From NCBI GenBank assembly GCA_902595425.1, contig CACJPV010000002.1, positions 127,559 through 191,558 of the forward strand: a stretch of DNA of 64,000 nucleotides, written 5' to 3'. The DNA comes from an uncultured Alphaproteobacteria bacterium (GTDB taxonomy: Bacteria > Pseudomonadota > Alphaproteobacteria > HIMB59 > GCA-002718135). This document shows, piece by piece, positions 3,616-52,360 of the stretch; within the stretch, counting starts at the first letter, position 1, and each line of letters begins with the position of its first letter. The position numbers and the translations under genes were made by a program. Under the pieces are notes generated by a model. The model saw nothing but the letters and a program-made list of their open reading frames with translations. It did no database searches and was not told the DNA's origin.

Positions 3616-4017
3616 ATGAGCGAAGCACTAGATACCCTAACAAAAAATCAGCAAACAGTACTTGATATTCTAGAGAGTGCTAAAGAGCCTCTCAAGGCAT
3701 ATGCTATTCTTTTTGATACACAAAAAAAAGGAATCAAAGCACCTCTGCAAGTATACCGCGCTTTGGATAAATTAATTGAAATTGGTAAGGTACATAAAAT
3801 AGAGAGTAAAAATTCATACATAGCTTGTAAGCATAAAAGTTGTGACGCAGGTACATCGACTTCTTTTTTAATTTGTGAGATATGTGATCTAGTTACAGAA
3901 CTTAAGAAAAATGTATCATCTTATTTCTCAAAGCAAAGTGCAGAGGTCAATTTTTCATATTCAAAACACAATTTAGAAATTTATGGAATTTGCAATAATT
4001 GTAAAAGAAATAACTAG
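3616..4017 (+). CDS. zur: Fur-family zinc uptake regulator Zur
   Basis: A 133-residue Fur-family repressor with an N-terminal winged-helix half (residues about 10-75, TKNQQTVLDIL...VYRALDKL) and a C-terminal metal/dimerisation half. Two CxxC pairs, CEIC near residue 96 and CNNC near the C-terminus, form the structural zinc site. It is the last gene of the znuC-znuB-zur unit, and the Zur palindrome upstream of that unit supports Zur rather than Fur, Irr or PerR. With zinc bound it should repress znuA and its own operon. Confidence 0.92.
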   Translation: MSEALDTLTKNQQTVLDILESAKEPLKAYAILFDTQKKGIKAPLQVYRALDKLIEIGKVHKIESKNSYIACKHKSCDAGTSTSFLICEICDLVTELKKNVSSYFSKQSAEVNFSYSKHNLEIYGICNNCKRNN

Positions 4018-45521: not shown

Positions 45522-46567
45522 TGCTAGCAGTTAGTATAAAAAACCTTAGTCACAAAATTAACAATAAACCAATTTTAAATAATGTTAATTTTGAATTAAA
45601 AAAAGATTCTATTGCTTGCATTCTTGGACCTTCCGGTAGTGGTAAAACGACATTATTAAAATTAATAGCAGGTTTAGATAAGGTCCAAAATGGTAAAATC
45701 TTTATAAATGAACAAGAAGTAAGTTCTCCTAATAAACATCTCGCAACTGAGAAAAGAAAAATTGGGTATCTCTTTCAAGACTACGCGCTCTTTCCTCACT
45801 TAACAGTCAAAGAAAATCTTAAATATCCTATTAATTTTAAAAACTCCATTTATACGATTAATGATATTATTGATGTTATTAAATTACCAAATTCTCTTGA
45901 TAAATATCCACATGAATTAAGTGGTGGAGAGCAACAACGAGTTGCTTTAGCAAGATCTATAATTTCTCATCCAGATTTATTATTATTAGACGAACCATTT
46001 TCTAGTCTTGATTTGAATTTAAGAGAAGAAATACGTGATGATACACTTCACTTACTTCAAAAATCTAACGTATCAACAATTATAGTTACGCATGATCCTT
46101 TTGAAGCAATGTTTATTTCAAATCAAATAAACATCATGGATGATAATGGTAGTATTATTCAATCTGGCTCTCCAGCAGATTTGTACAATACCCCTAAGAA
46201 TGAATATGTTACAAGATTTTTTGGAGAAACAAATGTTTTTCATGGTAATGCAGTTGATTCTATAGTTGCTACTCCTGTTGGCAACGTAAGAGTAGATCCT
46301 AAGTATAAAAACAAAAATGTTACAGTTCACATAAGACCTCAAGGAATAAAATTAAGTGAACAACCAACACCTGTTAACGGAATAAAGGGCACAGTTATGG
46401 CTTCAAAGTTAATGGGCTCATTTAGTTTTATTCATTTATCAGTTTTAAATAATAAAAATGAAGTAGTGCATGTTCATAGTCACATGCCTCCTGAATTTAA
46501 CCCTAAACAATCTTCTGCTGTAGAAATTGCAGTGGATGAAAAACATACTTTCGTTTTTGAAAGTTAA
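45521..46567 (+). CDS. fbpC: Ferric iron ABC transporter ATP-binding protein FbpC
   Basis: A 348-residue ABC ATPase. I took ATG 45521, which overlaps the protease stop, over a frame starting at 45476 inside that gene. It has Walker A GPSGSGKTT, VFQ-type LFQDYALFPHLTV, signature LSGGEQQRVALARS, Walker B LLLLDEPFSSLD and a C-terminal TOBE-like domain (VHIRPQGIKLS). The subfamily is FbpC/PotA-like; the convergent fbpAB operon makes iron the likely cargo. Notably, it is encoded on the opposite strand from its partners. Confidence 0.82.
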   Translation: MLAVSIKNLSHKINNKPILNNVNFELKKDSIACILGPSGSGKTTLLKLIAGLDKVQNGKIFINEQEVSSPNKHLATEKRKIGYLFQDYALFPHLTVKENLKYPINFKNSIYTINDIIDVIKLPNSLDKYPHELSGGEQQRVALARSIISHPDLLLLDEPFSSLDLNLREEIRDDTLHLLQKSNVSTIIVTHDPFEAMFISNQINIMDDNGSIIQSGSPADLYNTPKNEYVTRFFGETNVFHGNAVDSIVATPVGNVRVDPKYKNKNVTVHIRPQGIKLSEQPTPVNGIKGTVMASKLMGSFSFIHLSVLNNKNEVVHVHSHMPPEFNPKQSSAVEIAVDEKHTFVFES

Positions 46568-48171
46568 ATACTTTCTTTTCTTTGTGATACTCTTTGCAAT
46601 GCAGAGTTTAAAAATATAATTGGACCTAATCCAACTACAACAATAATAAGAGCGGCAAAAGAAGATTCTTGTAAAAGTTCATCCGAAGCGTACTGATAGA
46701 CATAAGTTGCTAAAGTTTCAAAGTTGAAAGGACGCAATAAAAGTGTGATGGGAAGTTCTTTTAATATATCAACAAAGACCAATATTCCTCCAATTAATAT
46801 ATTGGAAAATATTAAGGGCATAATTACAACTTTAACACCTTTATAAAAACCAGCTCCCATAGTCAAAGAAGCATCCATAGCATTTGGATGAATTTTTAAA
46901 ATTCCTGATCTAATAGATGCATTTCCTACAGCCAAAAATCTAACTATGTAAGCAAATATCAAGACAATAAAACCTCCTGCAACATAACTTAGATGAAGAT
47001 GAAGGTATTTATTAATCCATCCTAGGAAAATTACCATTCCTACTGCCAATATTGTTCCTGGCAGTGCATATCCACAAGACGCAAGAAAAATTAGGGATTT
47101 TTGAAAATTATTTGATTTATATTGAGAGATGATAATTAAAAATATTGAAGCCAGCATAACAAAAAAAGCACCTGTAAGAGCTAAAGTAATACTAAAAAAA
47201 GAAGTGTAGAATATTTGTGTGAAATCAATAATGGAAAAACCACTAAAAATAAAATTTAATAATACAGATACTGGAATAACAAATCCTATAACTATAGGTA
47301 TTATACAAACAAAAAAACAAATTATTTTCTTAACATTTGATGTAGTTTTAGCCTCTATCATATTTTGACCACTACTTTTTTCATGAAATCTTTGATTCCT
47401 TCTAGCAAGATATTCTATAGTTATTAAGACAACTACAAATATAAATAAAACAGATGAAATTTGTGAAGCTCCTGACAAACTATTCATACCAAGCCACACG
47501 TTAAAAACACCTAAAGTTAATGTCTCAAGCGCAAAATATTCAACAGTACCAAAATCAGATACAGTTTCCATTAACACAAGAGCCAAACCAGCTATGATGC
47601 CAGGTCGGGCAAGTGGTAAAGCAACACTAAAAAAACTACTTCTTCCATATATTAAACTTGTTTGAAAAAAAGATATAGGCACTGTTAGAAATGATGCTCT
47701 GGTAGTCATATAAATATATGGGTATAAAACAAATGACATTACAAATATTGCTCCTTCCATAGATCGTATTTCAGGAAACCAATATTCTTCTGCGTTTTTT
47801 AAATTAAAAAACTCTCTTATAATTTTTTGAACCGGTCCAGCGTACTCTAAAAAATCTGTATATGTGTATGCAATTATATAAGCTGGAACTGCTGCTGGTA
47901 ATAATAAAGCCCATTCAAAAAAATTCTTTCCAAAAAAATTATACCTAGTAACAACCCATGCGGTAGATATACCTAATAAAGAACTTAGCAAACCAACACC
48001 TATCATCAATATAATTGTATTCGAAATATATCTTGGCAATACAGTTGAGAATAAATGTGGCCACAATGAAGTGTCACCTAAAAAAGCAGAATAAAAAATT
48101 GCAAATACTGGCGCAATAATAATTAATGCAACCAAGGTAGCAAATAAAGATGAATTATTCCAATTTAACAA
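46564..48171 (-). CDS. fbpB: Ferric iron ABC transporter permease FbpB, two fused domains
   Basis: A 535-residue permease with about twelve spans and two permease domains. The segments VSDFGTVEYFALETLTLGV (first half) and DILKELPITLLLRPFNFETLA (second half) are typical of iron-type FbpB/FutB proteins. It lies 18 bp downstream of fbpA and overlaps the 3' end of the convergent fbpC by 4 bp. Confidence 0.9.
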   Translation of the reverse strand: MLNWNNSSLFATLVALIIIAPVFAIFYSAFLGDTSLWPHLFSTVLPRYISNTIILMIGVGLLSSLLGISTAWVVTRYNFFGKNFFEWALLLPAAVPAYIIAYTYTDFLEYAGPVQKIIREFFNLKNAEEYWFPEIRSMEGAIFVMSFVLYPYIYMTTRASFLTVPISFFQTSLIYGRSSFFSVALPLARPGIIAGLALVLMETVSDFGTVEYFALETLTLGVFNVWLGMNSLSGASQISSVLFIFVVVLITIEYLARRNQRFHEKSSGQNMIEAKTTSNVKKIICFFVCIIPIVIGFVIPVSVLLNFIFSGFSIIDFTQIFYTSFFSITLALTGAFFVMLASIFLIIISQYKSNNFQKSLIFLASCGYALPGTILAVGMVIFLGWINKYLHLHLSYVAGGFIVLIFAYIVRFLAVGNASIRSGILKIHPNAMDASLTMGAGFYKGVKVVIMPLIFSNILIGGILVFVDILKELPITLLLRPFNFETLATYVYQYASDELLQESSFAALIIVVVGLGPIIFLNSALQRVSQRKESI

Positions 48172-48189
48172 AACACTTGATGTTATAGA

Positions 48190-49209
48190 TTACCATCCAA
48201 CTCTATCAATTATTTTTTGTGCTTCAGGAGCAAGTTCAGCTATTTTTATAATTGGTAATTTATCTTCCCTAAAGTTTCCCCAGGAACTAAGCTCTTTGCT
48301 TGGATTTACGATGGGATTAACAGGATACTCAAAATTTATTTCACCATATAATTGTTGAGATTCTTTTGTAGTTAAAAATTCTAACAACAGTATTGCTTCT
48401 TTTTTGTTTTTTGAGTGCAGGGCAACACCTCCACCCGATATGTTAATATGTGCGCCACGGTCACCTTCTTTTTGATTTGGAAAAACCAACTTTACTTTTT
48501 CAGCCCATTTTCTTTGCTCAGGATCTTCAGAAAATTTTAATTTTCCATAATAATAATTATTAATAATTGCTATATTACATTCACCTTCATATATAGACTT
48601 AATTTGAGCTCTATCATTTCCTTGAGGTCTTCGCGCAAAATTATTTACAAGACCTTTTGCCCAAGCTTCCGCATTTGCTTCTCCATATTCTGCTAAAACA
48701 GATGCCATGATTCCTCTATTATAAACATGACTTCCAGGCCTTGAACAAATTTGACCTTTCCATTTCGGGTCGGCTAAGTCTTCTAATCTAGTTATTTCAC
48801 CATCCTTAATTTTTTCTTTATTTACCGCAATAACCCTTGCTCTTTTAGATAGAGCAAACCAATTGTTTTCAGGGCTTCTTAAATGTGATGGAACATTTTC
48901 TATTAATTTTTTAGACTCTATAGAGGCCAAAAGATTCAAATCTGAGTAAATATATAATCTGCCTATATCAACAGTTAATATAACATCAGCCGGACTGTTT
49001 TCTCCTTCTGATTGTAATCTTTGTGCAAGACCTTTTTTGGAATAGATAACGTTTGTTTTAATTCCAGTTTCATTTGTAAATAATTCTAAAAAAGGATTAA
49101 TTAAGAAGGGTTGTCTATGTGAATATATATTAATTTCTTTTGCAAAAAGATTTAGTGAAAAACATGTAATAAAGATTATTGATAAAATATTAAAAGTATT
49201 TTTTTTCAT
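48190..49209 (-). CDS. fbpA: Ferric iron-binding protein FbpA/FutA type
   Basis: A 339-residue periplasmic protein with a signal peptide (residues 1-24, ending LFAKE). The mature start EINIYSHRQPFLINPF and the tyrosine cluster INNYYYGKL near residue 215 match Fe3+-binding FbpA/FutA proteins, in which the tyrosines hold iron. The start overlaps the 3' end of the desaturase-like gene by 20 bp, so both are in one operon with fbpB. Confidence 0.92.
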   Translation of the reverse strand: MKKNTFNILSIIFITCFSLNLFAKEINIYSHRQPFLINPFLELFTNETGIKTNVIYSKKGLAQRLQSEGENSPADVILTVDIGRLYIYSDLNLLASIESKKLIENVPSHLRSPENNWFALSKRARVIAVNKEKIKDGEITRLEDLADPKWKGQICSRPGSHVYNRGIMASVLAEYGEANAEAWAKGLVNNFARRPQGNDRAQIKSIYEGECNIAIINNYYYGKLKFSEDPEQRKWAEKVKLVFPNQKEGDRGAHINISGGGVALHSKNKKEAILLLEFLTTKESQQLYGEINFEYPVNPIVNPSKELSSWGNFREDKLPIIKIAELAPEAQKIIDRVGW

Positions 49210-50209
49210 TAGAATAACTCCTCTTAAAAAGATTAAAATAAAATTTTTTTCGTAACAAATTTAAATTTTTAATAAAATAATTCTTTATTTCAAAAAAAGG
49301 ATTTAAATAAAGTGTTTTTAAATCATGACTTTCGTCTTTTTGATTTTTTTCAATGCCAAGTTTAAGTGTTTCAAAGTCAACAGAATGATGTAATGAACCA
49401 AAAAGCCAATCCCAAATTGCTAGTGCAGCGCCAAAATTTTTATCATGGTGCTCATTAGCTATAGAGTGATGTAGTTGATGTTGAGCTGGGGAAATAAAAA
49501 TATATTCTACCCACTTCCAATATTGAATGCCTATGTGAGAATGCCGTAGATTTGAACCTAAAACATTAAATATAAATACAAAAATATTTACTCCCAATAT
49601 TGTAAATAAGCTAACTGTATTTCCAAATAAAAATATAAATGTTGAAATACTAATAGCTTGTGTAACTGAACTTCTTAAAGAAAAAATAATTCCTTCTAAC
49701 GGATGTGTTCTAAACACTGTCATTGGGGTAAGAACGGTGGCTGAATGATGAACTTTATGCAGTGACCAAAGAATTGGCCAACGGTGCATAAATCTATGTA
49801 TTAAATACTTACTAAAATCATCAATCGTAAATTGAAAAGTCGTAAATGAAATAACCACAATAATAGGTAAAGTATTTGAAAACATACCAACACTCATCCA
49901 ATCTATTGAGTGAAAATAAAAGTATAAGGCTGTAGCTATTGTTAAATGTGTTATCAATATTGGTGAAACTATCATCATTATTAATTGATTGATTAAAAAA
50001 ACTTTATAATCCGATTTTGCTGATTTAGAAAAAAAGATTTTCCAATTAAAAATTTTTTTTAAAGCGACTTTTAAAGTAAATTTTTTACTTAAGATAAACC
50101 AACCTAAGGCAATGAATATTGATATAACAATATAAGCAATAAAAACTCTTTTTTTTGGATCAATAAATTGACTACCAATTTTGAAAAAATAGTCTGACAG
50201 GATATCCAT
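49190..50209 (-). CDS. Sterol desaturase/fatty acid hydroxylase superfamily protein
   Basis: A 339-residue integral membrane protein with several spans and the di-iron histidine clusters of the superfamily: HRFMH and HKVHHSA (near residues 137-155), then HQLHHS with NEHHDKNFG further on. These bind two iron ions for hydroxylation or desaturation of lipids. The substrate is unknown; a lipid headgroup or fatty acyl chain is likely. Co-transcription with the iron importer would link an iron enzyme to iron supply, but this is inference. Confidence 0.86.
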   Translation of the reverse strand: MDILSDYFFKIGSQFIDPKKRVFIAYIVISIFIALGWFILSKKFTLKVALKKIFNWKIFFSKSAKSDYKVFLINQLIMMIVSPILITHLTIATALYFYFHSIDWMSVGMFSNTLPIIVVISFTTFQFTIDDFSKYLIHRFMHRWPILWSLHKVHHSATVLTPMTVFRTHPLEGIIFSLRSSVTQAISISTFIFLFGNTVSLFTILGVNIFVFIFNVLGSNLRHSHIGIQYWKWVEYIFISPAQHQLHHSIANEHHDKNFGAALAIWDWLFGSLHHSVDFETLKLGIEKNQKDESHDLKTLYLNPFFEIKNYFIKNLNLLRKKFYFNLFKRSYSNEKKYF

Positions 50210-50255: not shown

Positions 50256-51632
50256 TTAATCATTTTCTGCAGAATCAGAACTGCCCATTGAACTAGCAAG
50301 ATCTTCCATCGCAGATAGTTGATCATTAGCTCTAGCAGTTACGCCAAATTCATCGATCATAAGTTTTTGAATTTTAAGCATATGTAACTTAAACTCACCC
50401 CATTCCTGAGCTTGATCTTTGATGAAATTACCGTTTGAATCAACTCCAACAACTTGTGAAGCATTTAATAAAACTGGTCCAAAGCCCATCATTCTATTCA
50501 TCTTAACAGCTGCTTCTCCTAGATTTTCTGGTCCACACTGAAGTGCTAAAGCAAAACCTTTAAGCTCACCCCAATGTTTTGCATATTTTCTAAACGCATC
50601 AGTTGTATCACCATTTGCTTCAACGATTATTTCAAGCGCTACTATGTCTTTATAAGTTGAACCTGCATACTTAAATACAGACTCAGCAATTACTTTTTGC
50701 CAGTTATCTCTGATAACATCTCTTGCAGCTAACATTGCAGTTCTTTCGTCGAAATTAAGATTACGACCATCAGCATCTCTTATAACTTCTCTTCCGTCTA
50801 TAAATGCTTGGTTAACTGTAGCAAGGTAATTTGTCTTTCCACCTTTATCATAACTTGATGCATAGTAAGCATGAGCATATAGCATCTCAGAATACAAATC
50901 TACAACACCATCTCCATTATAATCTGCTGAAGATAAATCTTTCATCTTGGCAACGTTATAGTTTTCTTCAGCTGATAGTGTTAAAGAATGTGCTGGCGCA
51001 CCCCAATATCCAAAAGCTTCATCCCAACTATGTTCTTTACCAGTATAATAAGATCCTTCTTTGTAAGGTTTATTATTTGGCTTTTCCCCAACTTTCATTT
51101 TTTTTCCAAGATAGTTGTTTACAGCTTGGTTGTAAAAAACAGCACCCATTGCAAATTTAGAAATCAATTGTGTGTAATCAAATCCAGTATTTGGATCAAA
51201 ACCACCTTCAACTTCGCTTGCTTTTTGCATCATATGTTCAATAGTTTCAGGTCCAGTTAGTCCTCCCCAACCAGGAATTGCACCTTTGTACATTTTGCCA
51301 GATAAATTACCGCTACCTATTTCTGAAACCATGGTTTGCATAACTGGAAAACCATCTTTAGATTTTGGGGCAATGATCTCTAAACCATCTTCACCATTGT
51401 AATAAGCCATCATTTTATCGAGATCACCTGTTTTAACAAGTTTTTTCAAACTATCATGTAGAACTTGTCTTGCCATTTGCCCTGTATATTTTACAGAATT
51501 TGTTTTATCACCATCATAACCTTTAAGTGTAATTGGATAAGGTCCATATATCTGATGACCATCAGCCAATAATGATTTTGAAAAACTAATTGCTATTATT
51601 ATTGAAGTAATAATTGTAAATATTTTTTTCAT
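50256..51632 (-). CDS. DUF4856 protein, imelysin-like, probable iron-regulated exported protein
   Basis: A 458-residue protein with a signal peptide (residues 1-23, ending LLADG). It has the KEHSWDEAFGYWGAPAH segment (near residue 199) that characterises DUF4856, a family related to the imelysin/iron-regulated EfeO-IrpA group. The function is unknown, but related proteins bind iron or act at the envelope during iron uptake. It is encoded directly upstream of the desaturase-fbpAB operon. An Irr-box palindrome at 51804-51818 and a GC-clamped leader hairpin (51659-51705) precede it, with a clear GAGGAG ribosome binding site at 51636-51641. Confidence 0.82.
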   Translation of the reverse strand: MKKIFTIITSIIIAISFSKSLLADGHQIYGPYPITLKGYDGDKTNSVKYTGQMARQVLHDSLKKLVKTGDLDKMMAYYNGEDGLEIIAPKSKDGFPVMQTMVSEIGSGNLSGKMYKGAIPGWGGLTGPETIEHMMQKASEVEGGFDPNTGFDYTQLISKFAMGAVFYNQAVNNYLGKKMKVGEKPNNKPYKEGSYYTGKEHSWDEAFGYWGAPAHSLTLSAEENYNVAKMKDLSSADYNGDGVVDLYSEMLYAHAYYASSYDKGGKTNYLATVNQAFIDGREVIRDADGRNLNFDERTAMLAARDVIRDNWQKVIAESVFKYAGSTYKDIVALEIIVEANGDTTDAFRKYAKHWGELKGFALALQCGPENLGEAAVKMNRMMGFGPVLLNASQVVGVDSNGNFIKDQAQEWGEFKLHMLKIQKLMIDEFGVTARANDQLSAMEDLASSMGSSDSAEND

Positions 51633-51658
51633 AAACTCCTCGTAATAAATTTTTAATT

Positions 51659-51705
51659 GCGGGAGCAGAATAACGGAATTGCTGGTAATGTTTTATTGCT
51701 CCCGC
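51659..51705 (-). promoter_or_regulatory. Structured mRNA leader of the DUF4856 gene
   Basis: On the minus strand GCGGGAGCA (51705-51697) pairs with TGCTCCCGC (51667-51659), extended by ATAA/TTAT-type pairs. The loop contains TACCAGCAATT (51687-51677). It is placed between the Irr-box promoter region and the ribosome binding site, about 18 nt from the latter, so it can be read as a cis-regulatory RNA. A related loop motif occurs in the leader at 52202-52249. Confidence 0.55.
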
Positions 51706-51803
51706 GTCCTCTTATTGAGAATCTAAAGACTTTAATATTTATAAAATTTCAAATCTAAATTAAAAAAAAATTCACTAAGTATTTGTACAAAATTTAAATA
51801 TTT

Positions 51804-51818
51804 TTAGAATTATTCTAA
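51804..51818. promoter_or_regulatory. Irr-box (iron control element)-like palindrome upstream of the DUF4856 gene
   Basis: TTAGAAT-T-ATTCTAA, 15 bp with a one-base centre, matches the alphaproteobacterial Irr box (TTTAGAA-N3-TTCTAAA type). It lies about 172 bp before the DUF4856 start, and about 8 bp after the regulator stop. The distance would suit Irr acting as an activator upstream of the promoter under low iron. An identical copy is at 52346-52360. Confidence 0.72.
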
Positions 51819-51825
51819 TTAAATA

Positions 51826-52188
51826 TTAGTTAGAAAAATACTTCTTTTGATCTAAATACCATTGAGTCAGCATCAAAGAATAACTTTCTGACAAACAGTA
51901 AGTTCTCATTCTTCTATCTTTTTTTGAGAATTTTTTGATGAAATAACCCTTTGCAACAGCATAATTAAGAGTTGAGTAAATTGTTGATCTGCAACCAAGT
52001 TTTGATGGTATTTTTTTACATAACAACTCATAAGACATACATTGATTATTGAAGGTTGAAGAAGCAATTTCAAGACTAATTAAACGTGTAAGCGCAGATG
52101 AATAAAAGAAGTTATAACAGGGATCTACATCTTTTTTAGAATAAAAATCTTTTTTTACTAAGTCTACAACGTTCTCTAAACCTAACAT
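51826..52188 (-). CDS. Small winged-helix regulator (MarR-like)
   Basis: About 120 residues from the ATG at 52186-52188; the frame also opens with TTG two codons earlier. It has a helix-turn-helix-like stretch around LCKKIPSKLGCRSTIYSTLNYAVAKGY and a charged wing KKFSKKDRRMRTYCLS, a pattern of MarR-like proteins. Two cysteines lie near the recognition helix. It is preceded by a structured leader and an Irr-box copy and precedes the DUF4856 gene on the same strand, so it is probably an iron-responsive transcription factor for the neighbourhood. I do not recognise a specific family. Confidence 0.55.
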   Translation of the reverse strand: MLGLENVVDLVKKDFYSKKDVDPCYNFFYSSALTRLISLEIASSTFNNQCMSYELLCKKIPSKLGCRSTIYSTLNYAVAKGYFIKKFSKKDRRMRTYCLSESYSLMLTQWYLDQKKYFSN

Positions 52189-52201
52189 AAGCAAATTTTT
52201 T

Positions 52202-52249
52202 TTGGGGTGAAAAATTGCGCTGGTACCTGCAACAACCTTTCAACCCCAA
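52202..52249 (-). promoter_or_regulatory. Structured mRNA leader of the small regulator gene
   Basis: On the minus strand TTGGGG (52249-52244) plus adjacent bases pairs with CCCCAA (52207-52202), with an inner short stem around TTGC/GCAA-type bases. The loop has TACCAGCGCAATT (52225-52213), sharing TACCAGC and AATT with the leader at 51659-51705. It ends about 13 nt before the ATG, with an A-rich stretch in place of a Shine-Dalgarno sequence. Confidence 0.5.
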
Positions 52250-52345
52250 GTAGAAACATACAGATCTTTTTTATGAATTTTAATTTAAGAGTACAGTGTA
52301 TTTTTTATATTAAGGATATATGTTGAAAATTAATCATTATTAAAT

Positions 52346-52360
52346 TTAGAATTATTCTAA
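52346..52360. promoter_or_regulatory. Irr-box-like palindrome upstream of the small regulator gene
   Basis: TTAGAAT-T-ATTCTAA, identical in all 15 bases to the copy at 51804-51818. It lies 158 bp before the regulator start and 1 bp after the HupE stop codon. Both copies have AT-rich flanks extending the palindrome (AAATT and AATTT here). Confidence 0.72.

Follow-up and report, generated by a model that had tools for sequence, protein, structure and literature searches.

Organization of the Locus

The window, i.e., the whole stretch of 64,000 nucleotides that was analysed, belongs to a small AT-rich marine alphaproteobacterium whose nearest named relatives are the AG-447 and AG-337 single-cell genomes and the MarineAlpha5 bins. 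Two leaders are located on its minus strand (51659–51724 and 52202–52261), each about 80 nt past a perfect copy of TTAGAATTATTCTAA, which we take to be the ICE (iron control element)/Irr-box consensus; these two copies are the only perfect ones in the 64-kb window. The features of the locus, in order of coordinates, are the following:

46564–48171, minus strand: ABC transporter permease (PF00528)
48190–49209, minus strand: periplasmic Fe(III)-type ABC substrate-binding protein, FbpA/SfuC-like (PF13343)
49190–50209, minus strand: fatty-acid-hydroxylase-family membrane protein, second gene of the operon (PF04116)
50256–51632, minus strand: DUF4856 protein of 458 aa, here the first gene of the operon (Pfam PF16148, E 1.7e-11)
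51636–51641, minus strand: Shine-Dalgarno sequence GAGGAG of the DUF4856 gene, read from the sequence
51659–51724, minus strand: leader 1, candidate P1-P2 structured RNA element (covariation; single copy per genome)
51659–51705, minus strand: P2 clamp stem GCGGGAGCA/TGCTCCCGC with a variable loop containing TACCAGCAATT (two-sided changes in 7 of 8 core pairs)
51681–51687, minus strand: TACCAGC word within the P2 loop of leader 1, not conserved
51706–51724, minus strand: P1 hairpin AGATTCTCAATAAGAGGAC, 5 bp with a 5-nt loop, plus a 1-nt linker; the most conserved part in groups A–D
51804–51818: Irr box TTAGAATTATTCTAA upstream of leader 1, perfect match
51826–52188, minus strand: MarR-like winged-helix regulator of 120 aa (AlphaFold and Foldseek)
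52182–52259, minus strand: overlapping small ORF MFLLGVERLLQVPAQFFTPKKICLC, followed by its stop and open in 9 of 9 genomes
52202–52261, minus strand: leader 2, conserved 5′ tail GTATGTTTCTA plus hairpin (A3/A8 alignments)
52217–52235, minus strand: invariant 19-nt tip of leader 2, TTGTTGCAGGTACCAGCGC, without a variable column in 9 genomes
52346–52360: Irr box TTAGAATTATTCTAA upstream of leader 2, perfect match

A sequence-only reading of the window had already placed two structured leaders here, downstream of Irr boxes and just before start codons, and all three observations hold: the folds reach z values of -3.8 (51655–51710) and -4.5 (52200–52250) against dinucleotide shuffles, with 0 of 200 shuffles as good for either, the boxes are perfect at both promoters, and the gaps between hairpin and start codon are 26 nt for leader 1 and 13 nt for leader 2. 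Rfam 15 gave no match in the window at the curated gathering cut-off, the best weak matches being far under it. The sequence directly after P2 and after the hairpin of leader 2 is A-rich and shows no U-run as a sign of an intrinsic terminator, so that an attenuator is unlikely.

Architecture and Covariation of Leader 1

In all its groups, leader 1 consists of the hairpin P1 (4–5 bp with a loop of 5–7 nt), a linker, and the hairpin P2 (at least 8 bp). Groups A (the window), B, E (L075), and F (L097) were found via DUF4856 homologs in the genus, and in these the element heads the operon before the DUF4856 gene. Group C is a shorter form, matched by a group-B covariance model in most genomes without DUF4856, in which the element follows an Irr box and directly precedes an FbpA-type gene; group D is a further form, likewise placed before FbpA. 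The FbpA proteins behind groups C and D are only about 60% identical to that of the window, which indicates that the element persists while the genes behind it differ. P1 of groups A–D has AGATYCTYARTMAKAGRAC in common, the linker is of 1 nt in all versions except group D, in which it is longer, and the P2 loop ranges from 7 nt in group C to about 60 nt in group B. In the group B leaders (L004–L007 and L058–L072), the P2 loop has a further conserved block, AAGGGTAAA.GCGCATCTTAACC, and an ACTAAG located downstream is able to pair with CTTAGT of the P1 region; these features are seen in DUF4856-first operons only.

Among 19 distinct versions, 92.3% of cells are paired over 13 pairs, 10 of which show two-sided changes, although these counts are biased towards structure by an alignment that keeps the P2 arms in register and masks the loop as N, a bias against which slid and shuffled controls guard: the covariation score is attained by 0 of 500 shuffles and the slid controls drop to 47–65% paired. 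MAFFT, when applied to every form of leader 1 together, had put the 3′ arm of P2 in the wrong place, and for this reason the arms were aligned in this way. Two-sided changes affect pairs 4-18, 5-17, and 8-14 of P1 and 7 of the 8 core pairs of P2, so that the covariation check on homologous leaders proposed by the sequence-only reading turned out positive for leader 1. When groups C and D are left out, the 8 most distinct DUF4856-first leaders are 99% paired and have two-sided changes in 9 of 13 pairs; compensations are also found within groups, two in L074, one in L021, and one in group B, where pair 28-80 is AU or GC. Some irregularities are present: 5 of 17 group C leaders carry a single uncompensated stem mismatch, L189 has a mismatch in an outer pair, P1 is weak in group C (-0.4 kcal/mol), and groups B and C have a U-U mismatch at pair 8-14. 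Taken together, the alignments make a conserved RNA structure very probable for leader 1. Of the GC-rich clamp and loop that had been described for it from the sequence, the clamp stem is conserved; the loop word is not kept, and the small 5′ hairpin had not been separated from the rest.

Of 102 genomes of the genus, 79 carry a single P1-P2 element, compared with 0 of 60 genomes from other genera of the order; as a control, the same pattern searched backwards is absent from the genus. In the sister family, DUF4856 homologs have neither an Irr box nor the leader. The FbpA homologs of that family (L236–L243) are located behind other genes, without a recognisable Irr box or P1-P2 leader. On these comparisons, leader 1 is a predicted cis-RNA of an iron operon, restricted to the genus and absent from Rfam.

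Position Relative to the Irr Promoter

The distance between the end of the Irr box and the first base of the leader-1 element is 76–80 nt in every group from A to F, as measured in the window (51724–51818) and its homologs L001–L075 and L176–L193, in spite of a spacer identity between groups that is at chance (0.29–0.55 vs 0.38 expected), while the distance between element and ATG varies from 56 to 131 nt. Similarly, leader 2 begins 83–86 nt after its Irr box in 9 of 9 genomes. The spacing would be set by the promoter, and both RNAs would begin at or near the start of transcription; this placement of the 5′ ends relies on the fixed spacing because the -10 box is indistinguishable from the AT-rich background in all groups except B.

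As for the regulator itself, an IrrA-family protein is encoded in relatives within the genus (154 bits in L264 and 145 bits in L249, against a cut-off of 150); in the draft genome from which the window comes, 84% complete, none was found. The sole Fur-family match in this draft (3616–4017, plus strand) lies beside a ZnuB-like permease and is probably Zur. Since an ICE box is present upstream at both promoters and is kept in homologs, and Irr is present in relatives, both leaders are tied to a predicted Irr (iron/heme) promoter.

Leader 2 and the MarR-like Regulator Behind It

Leader 2 occurs in 9 genomes, each of which also holds the MarR-like regulator, and the sequence of its tip was found in 0 of 384 other sampled alphaproteobacterial genomes. 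The regulator has no Pfam or NCBIfam match; its AlphaFold model (pLDDT 90.7) has MarR-family regulators as best Foldseek matches, among them the heme sensor PefR. A second family of MarR-like paralogs (L026–L045), about 36% identical and present in many genomes of the genus, follows a different conserved gene and has no leader 2. In one genome (L052 in G103) the MarR-like gene is frameshifted and leader 2 is intact; the argument that the leader can survive the loss of its gene was abandoned, since one frameshift in a draft genome from a single cell is unsafe evidence.

The 57-nt core of leader 2 has 10 variable columns across the 9 genomes, compared with differences at up to 15 of 27 four-fold sites in the next gene. 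All changes in the stem lead to a G-U or G-C pair, and the leader is 100% paired; with little variation available, there is one two-sided change and 126 of 500 shuffles match the covariation score, which is therefore not significant. Leader 2 is probably a conserved RNA structure, a judgement somewhat less firm than that on leader 1. The presence of GTTTCTAC recalls purine riboswitches, for which the match is of 19.8 bits (E 4.7), far from the at least 37 bits needed by the three-way-junction model.

Two other explanations were considered for this conservation. In the first, leader 2 would encode a leader peptide of 20–25 codons whose translation is coupled to that of the regulator by a stop near or overlapping the regulator ATG. 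The small ORF is in fact open in 9 of 9 genomes, its stop coincides with the regulator ATG or lies no more than about 15 nt from it, and this ATG has no clear Shine-Dalgarno sequence; however, no Shine-Dalgarno sequence precedes the small ORF either, and the codon positions of the variable columns are 1, 2, 3, 2, 2, 3, 2, 2, 2, and 3. Second positions thus change most (6 of 10), which argues against conservation of the peptide itself, and a conserved peptide was discarded as contradicted by this pattern. Translation of the small ORF could still matter, and the coupled leader peptide as a whole is regarded as rather unlikely.

In the second, slightly less plausible explanation, leader 2 would be a DNA operator through which the MarR-like protein behind it regulates its own gene. 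The leader contains a 41-bp palindrome, it is present exactly in the genomes that have the regulator, and the predicted fold of this protein is of the MarR type. Usual MarR sites, however, are unlike arms separated by 15 bp, as those of the palindrome are, and the one-sided G-U steps in the arms break the DNA symmetry, while the centre is invariant; the changes in the arms therefore fit a putative RNA better than a DNA dyad, and autoregulation at this site is considered unlikely.

Possible Mode of Action of Leader 1

By comparison of the homologs, the predicted P1-linker-P2 arrangement of leader 1 is kept by compensatory changes, in one copy per genome, at a fixed distance from the Irr box and at the head of an iron-uptake operon. 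The reading that we favour, with some reserve, makes leader 1 a 5′ RNA element that acts in cis on an iron-uptake operon under Irr control, and leader 2 a separate hairpin on the mRNA of a MarR-like regulator. Transcription would start at P1 or a few nucleotides before it, so that P1-P2 would cap the 5′ end of the mRNA and may tune the message at a step that follows the transcriptional control by Irr. The most likely route would be an effect on mRNA 5′-end stability together with the maintenance of an open A-rich ribosome-binding stretch, and P1, which bears the conserved letters, may be the contact point for a protein. This mechanism of stability and protein contact is put forward tentatively. 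A more specific version, in which P1-P2 would be a bacterial counterpart of an iron-responsive RNA element, with a 5′-end hairpin bound by an iron- or heme-dependent RNA-binding protein, appears improbable; if true, ocean bacteria with small genomes would have, besides Irr, a second iron switch that acts after transcription.

P1 could instead be a dyad in the DNA near the promoter and serve a second regulator as its operator, with P2 merely a hairpin of the 5′ UTR. The fixed distance of 76–80 bp from the Irr box would then be a matter of DNA geometry, and P1 is indeed a dyad with conserved letters in groups A–D. On the other hand, groups E and F change the letters of P1 on both sides with the pairing kept (GACU..AGUC and UUCUU..AAGAA), a G-U pair in group A breaks the DNA symmetry, and P1 is one nucleotide from P2 in all versions bar group D with its longer linker; an operator at P1 is for these reasons also improbable.

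A metabolite or metal riboswitch, in which heme or Fe2+ would switch ribosome access, is suggested by the iron operon, the structured leader, and the close downstream Shine-Dalgarno sequence, with which the 5′ strand of P1 can pair in group B (-8.3 kcal/mol). Nevertheless, the P2 loop is unconserved and as short as 7 nt, leaving little room for a ligand pocket, there is no Rfam match, and across groups the P1 strand pairs no better with its own Shine-Dalgarno sequence than with those of other groups; an anti-Shine-Dalgarno switch was rejected since own and cross duplex energies show no consistent advantage, except in group B. A riboswitch is accordingly a very remote prospect for leader 1.

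The Word Common to the Two Leaders

The two leaders had attracted attention because of a TACCAGC word followed by AATT, present in TACCAGCAATT (51677–51687, minus strand) and in TACCAGCGCAATT (52213–52225, minus strand) and considered too specific to dismiss. TACCAGC alone is observed 6 times against 3.7 expected, and TACCAGC-N0-2-AATT 2 times against 0.22, a number reached by 3 of 100 shuffles, a figure that takes no account of the many words that a reader could have picked; as the word was chosen after it had been seen, the excess is weak evidence. Only two of the 10 distinct leader-1 sequences that belong to the type of the window have TACCAGC, namely that of the window itself and L003; the remaining 8 have TATCAGC, GATCAGC, or TTCCAGC, and none of these four words is found in the leader-1 versions outside this type. 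The part of the P2 loop that is conserved within the window's group and L075 is the adjoining AATTYCGTT. In leader 2, instead, the TACCAGC..AATT word is invariant, half of it in the apical loop and half in the stem. Models of leader 1 retrieve no leader 2, nor do models of leader 2 retrieve leader 1.

It is hardly credible, then, that the leaders are copies of a single new RNA element defined by this loop: the word is present in both leaders of the window, each behind an Irr box, but leader-1 homologs lose it, it occupies different structural positions in the two leaders, and the models do not cross-detect. The comparison with homologs, which the sequence-only reading had itself put forward, went against the shared loop motif, which was discarded since leader-1 homologs retain the stems without the word. 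On the alignments, the common word is a coincidence and the leaders are two unrelated elements, leader 2 having in common with leader 1 only the layout of the Irr promoter. Of the earlier proposal of a new iron-linked RNA element, what stands is that each leader is conserved, structured, linked to an Irr promoter, and outside Rfam; what falls is the single element with a shared loop.

Comparison with Known Systems and Significance

Neither leader is in Rfam, and both are ordinary in kind. With the Irr box/ICE promoters of Alphaproteobacteria they share the perfect box upstream and an Irr encoded in the genus; however, Irr/ICE control acts at the level of DNA, whereas leader 1 would be an additional conserved RNA at a fixed downstream distance. 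In the ompA type, a 5′-terminal stem-loop stabilises the mRNA. The leader-1 hairpins resemble such stabilisers in their probable 5′-terminal location and in the open stretch for ribosome binding that follows, and differ from them in forming a two-hairpin unit that has its conserved letters in the first hairpin and is tied to one operon, with a putative effect on stability. The SAR11 ffh, pntA, and other small-stem motifs (PMC2704228) are likewise small covarying hairpin leaders in compact marine genomes, but they belong to other genes, have other sequences, and none is iron-linked.

The closest comparison is with "Ca. Pelagibacter ubique", where a putative structural RNA has been noted ahead of the sfuC iron operon (PMC2864753, citing Meyer et al. 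2009, PMC2704228) and the response to iron limitation was proposed to involve post-transcriptional control, with no RNA defined (PMC2864753); in Table 1 of Meyer et al., that 100-bp sfuC intergenic region has no RNA motif assigned (PMC2704228). The P. ubique leader resembles leader 1 in its setting: it precedes the homologous operon with the Fe(III)-binding protein, and its host is likewise a marine alphaproteobacterium, with a comparable lifestyle and an Irr of its own. Unlike leader 1, it has no P1-P2 structure described.

Iron limits growth across much of the ocean. Leader 1 would represent a defined, covarying leader RNA on a marine alphaproteobacterial iron-uptake operon, with a fixed link to an Irr site, and makes the idea of post-transcriptional control directly testable.
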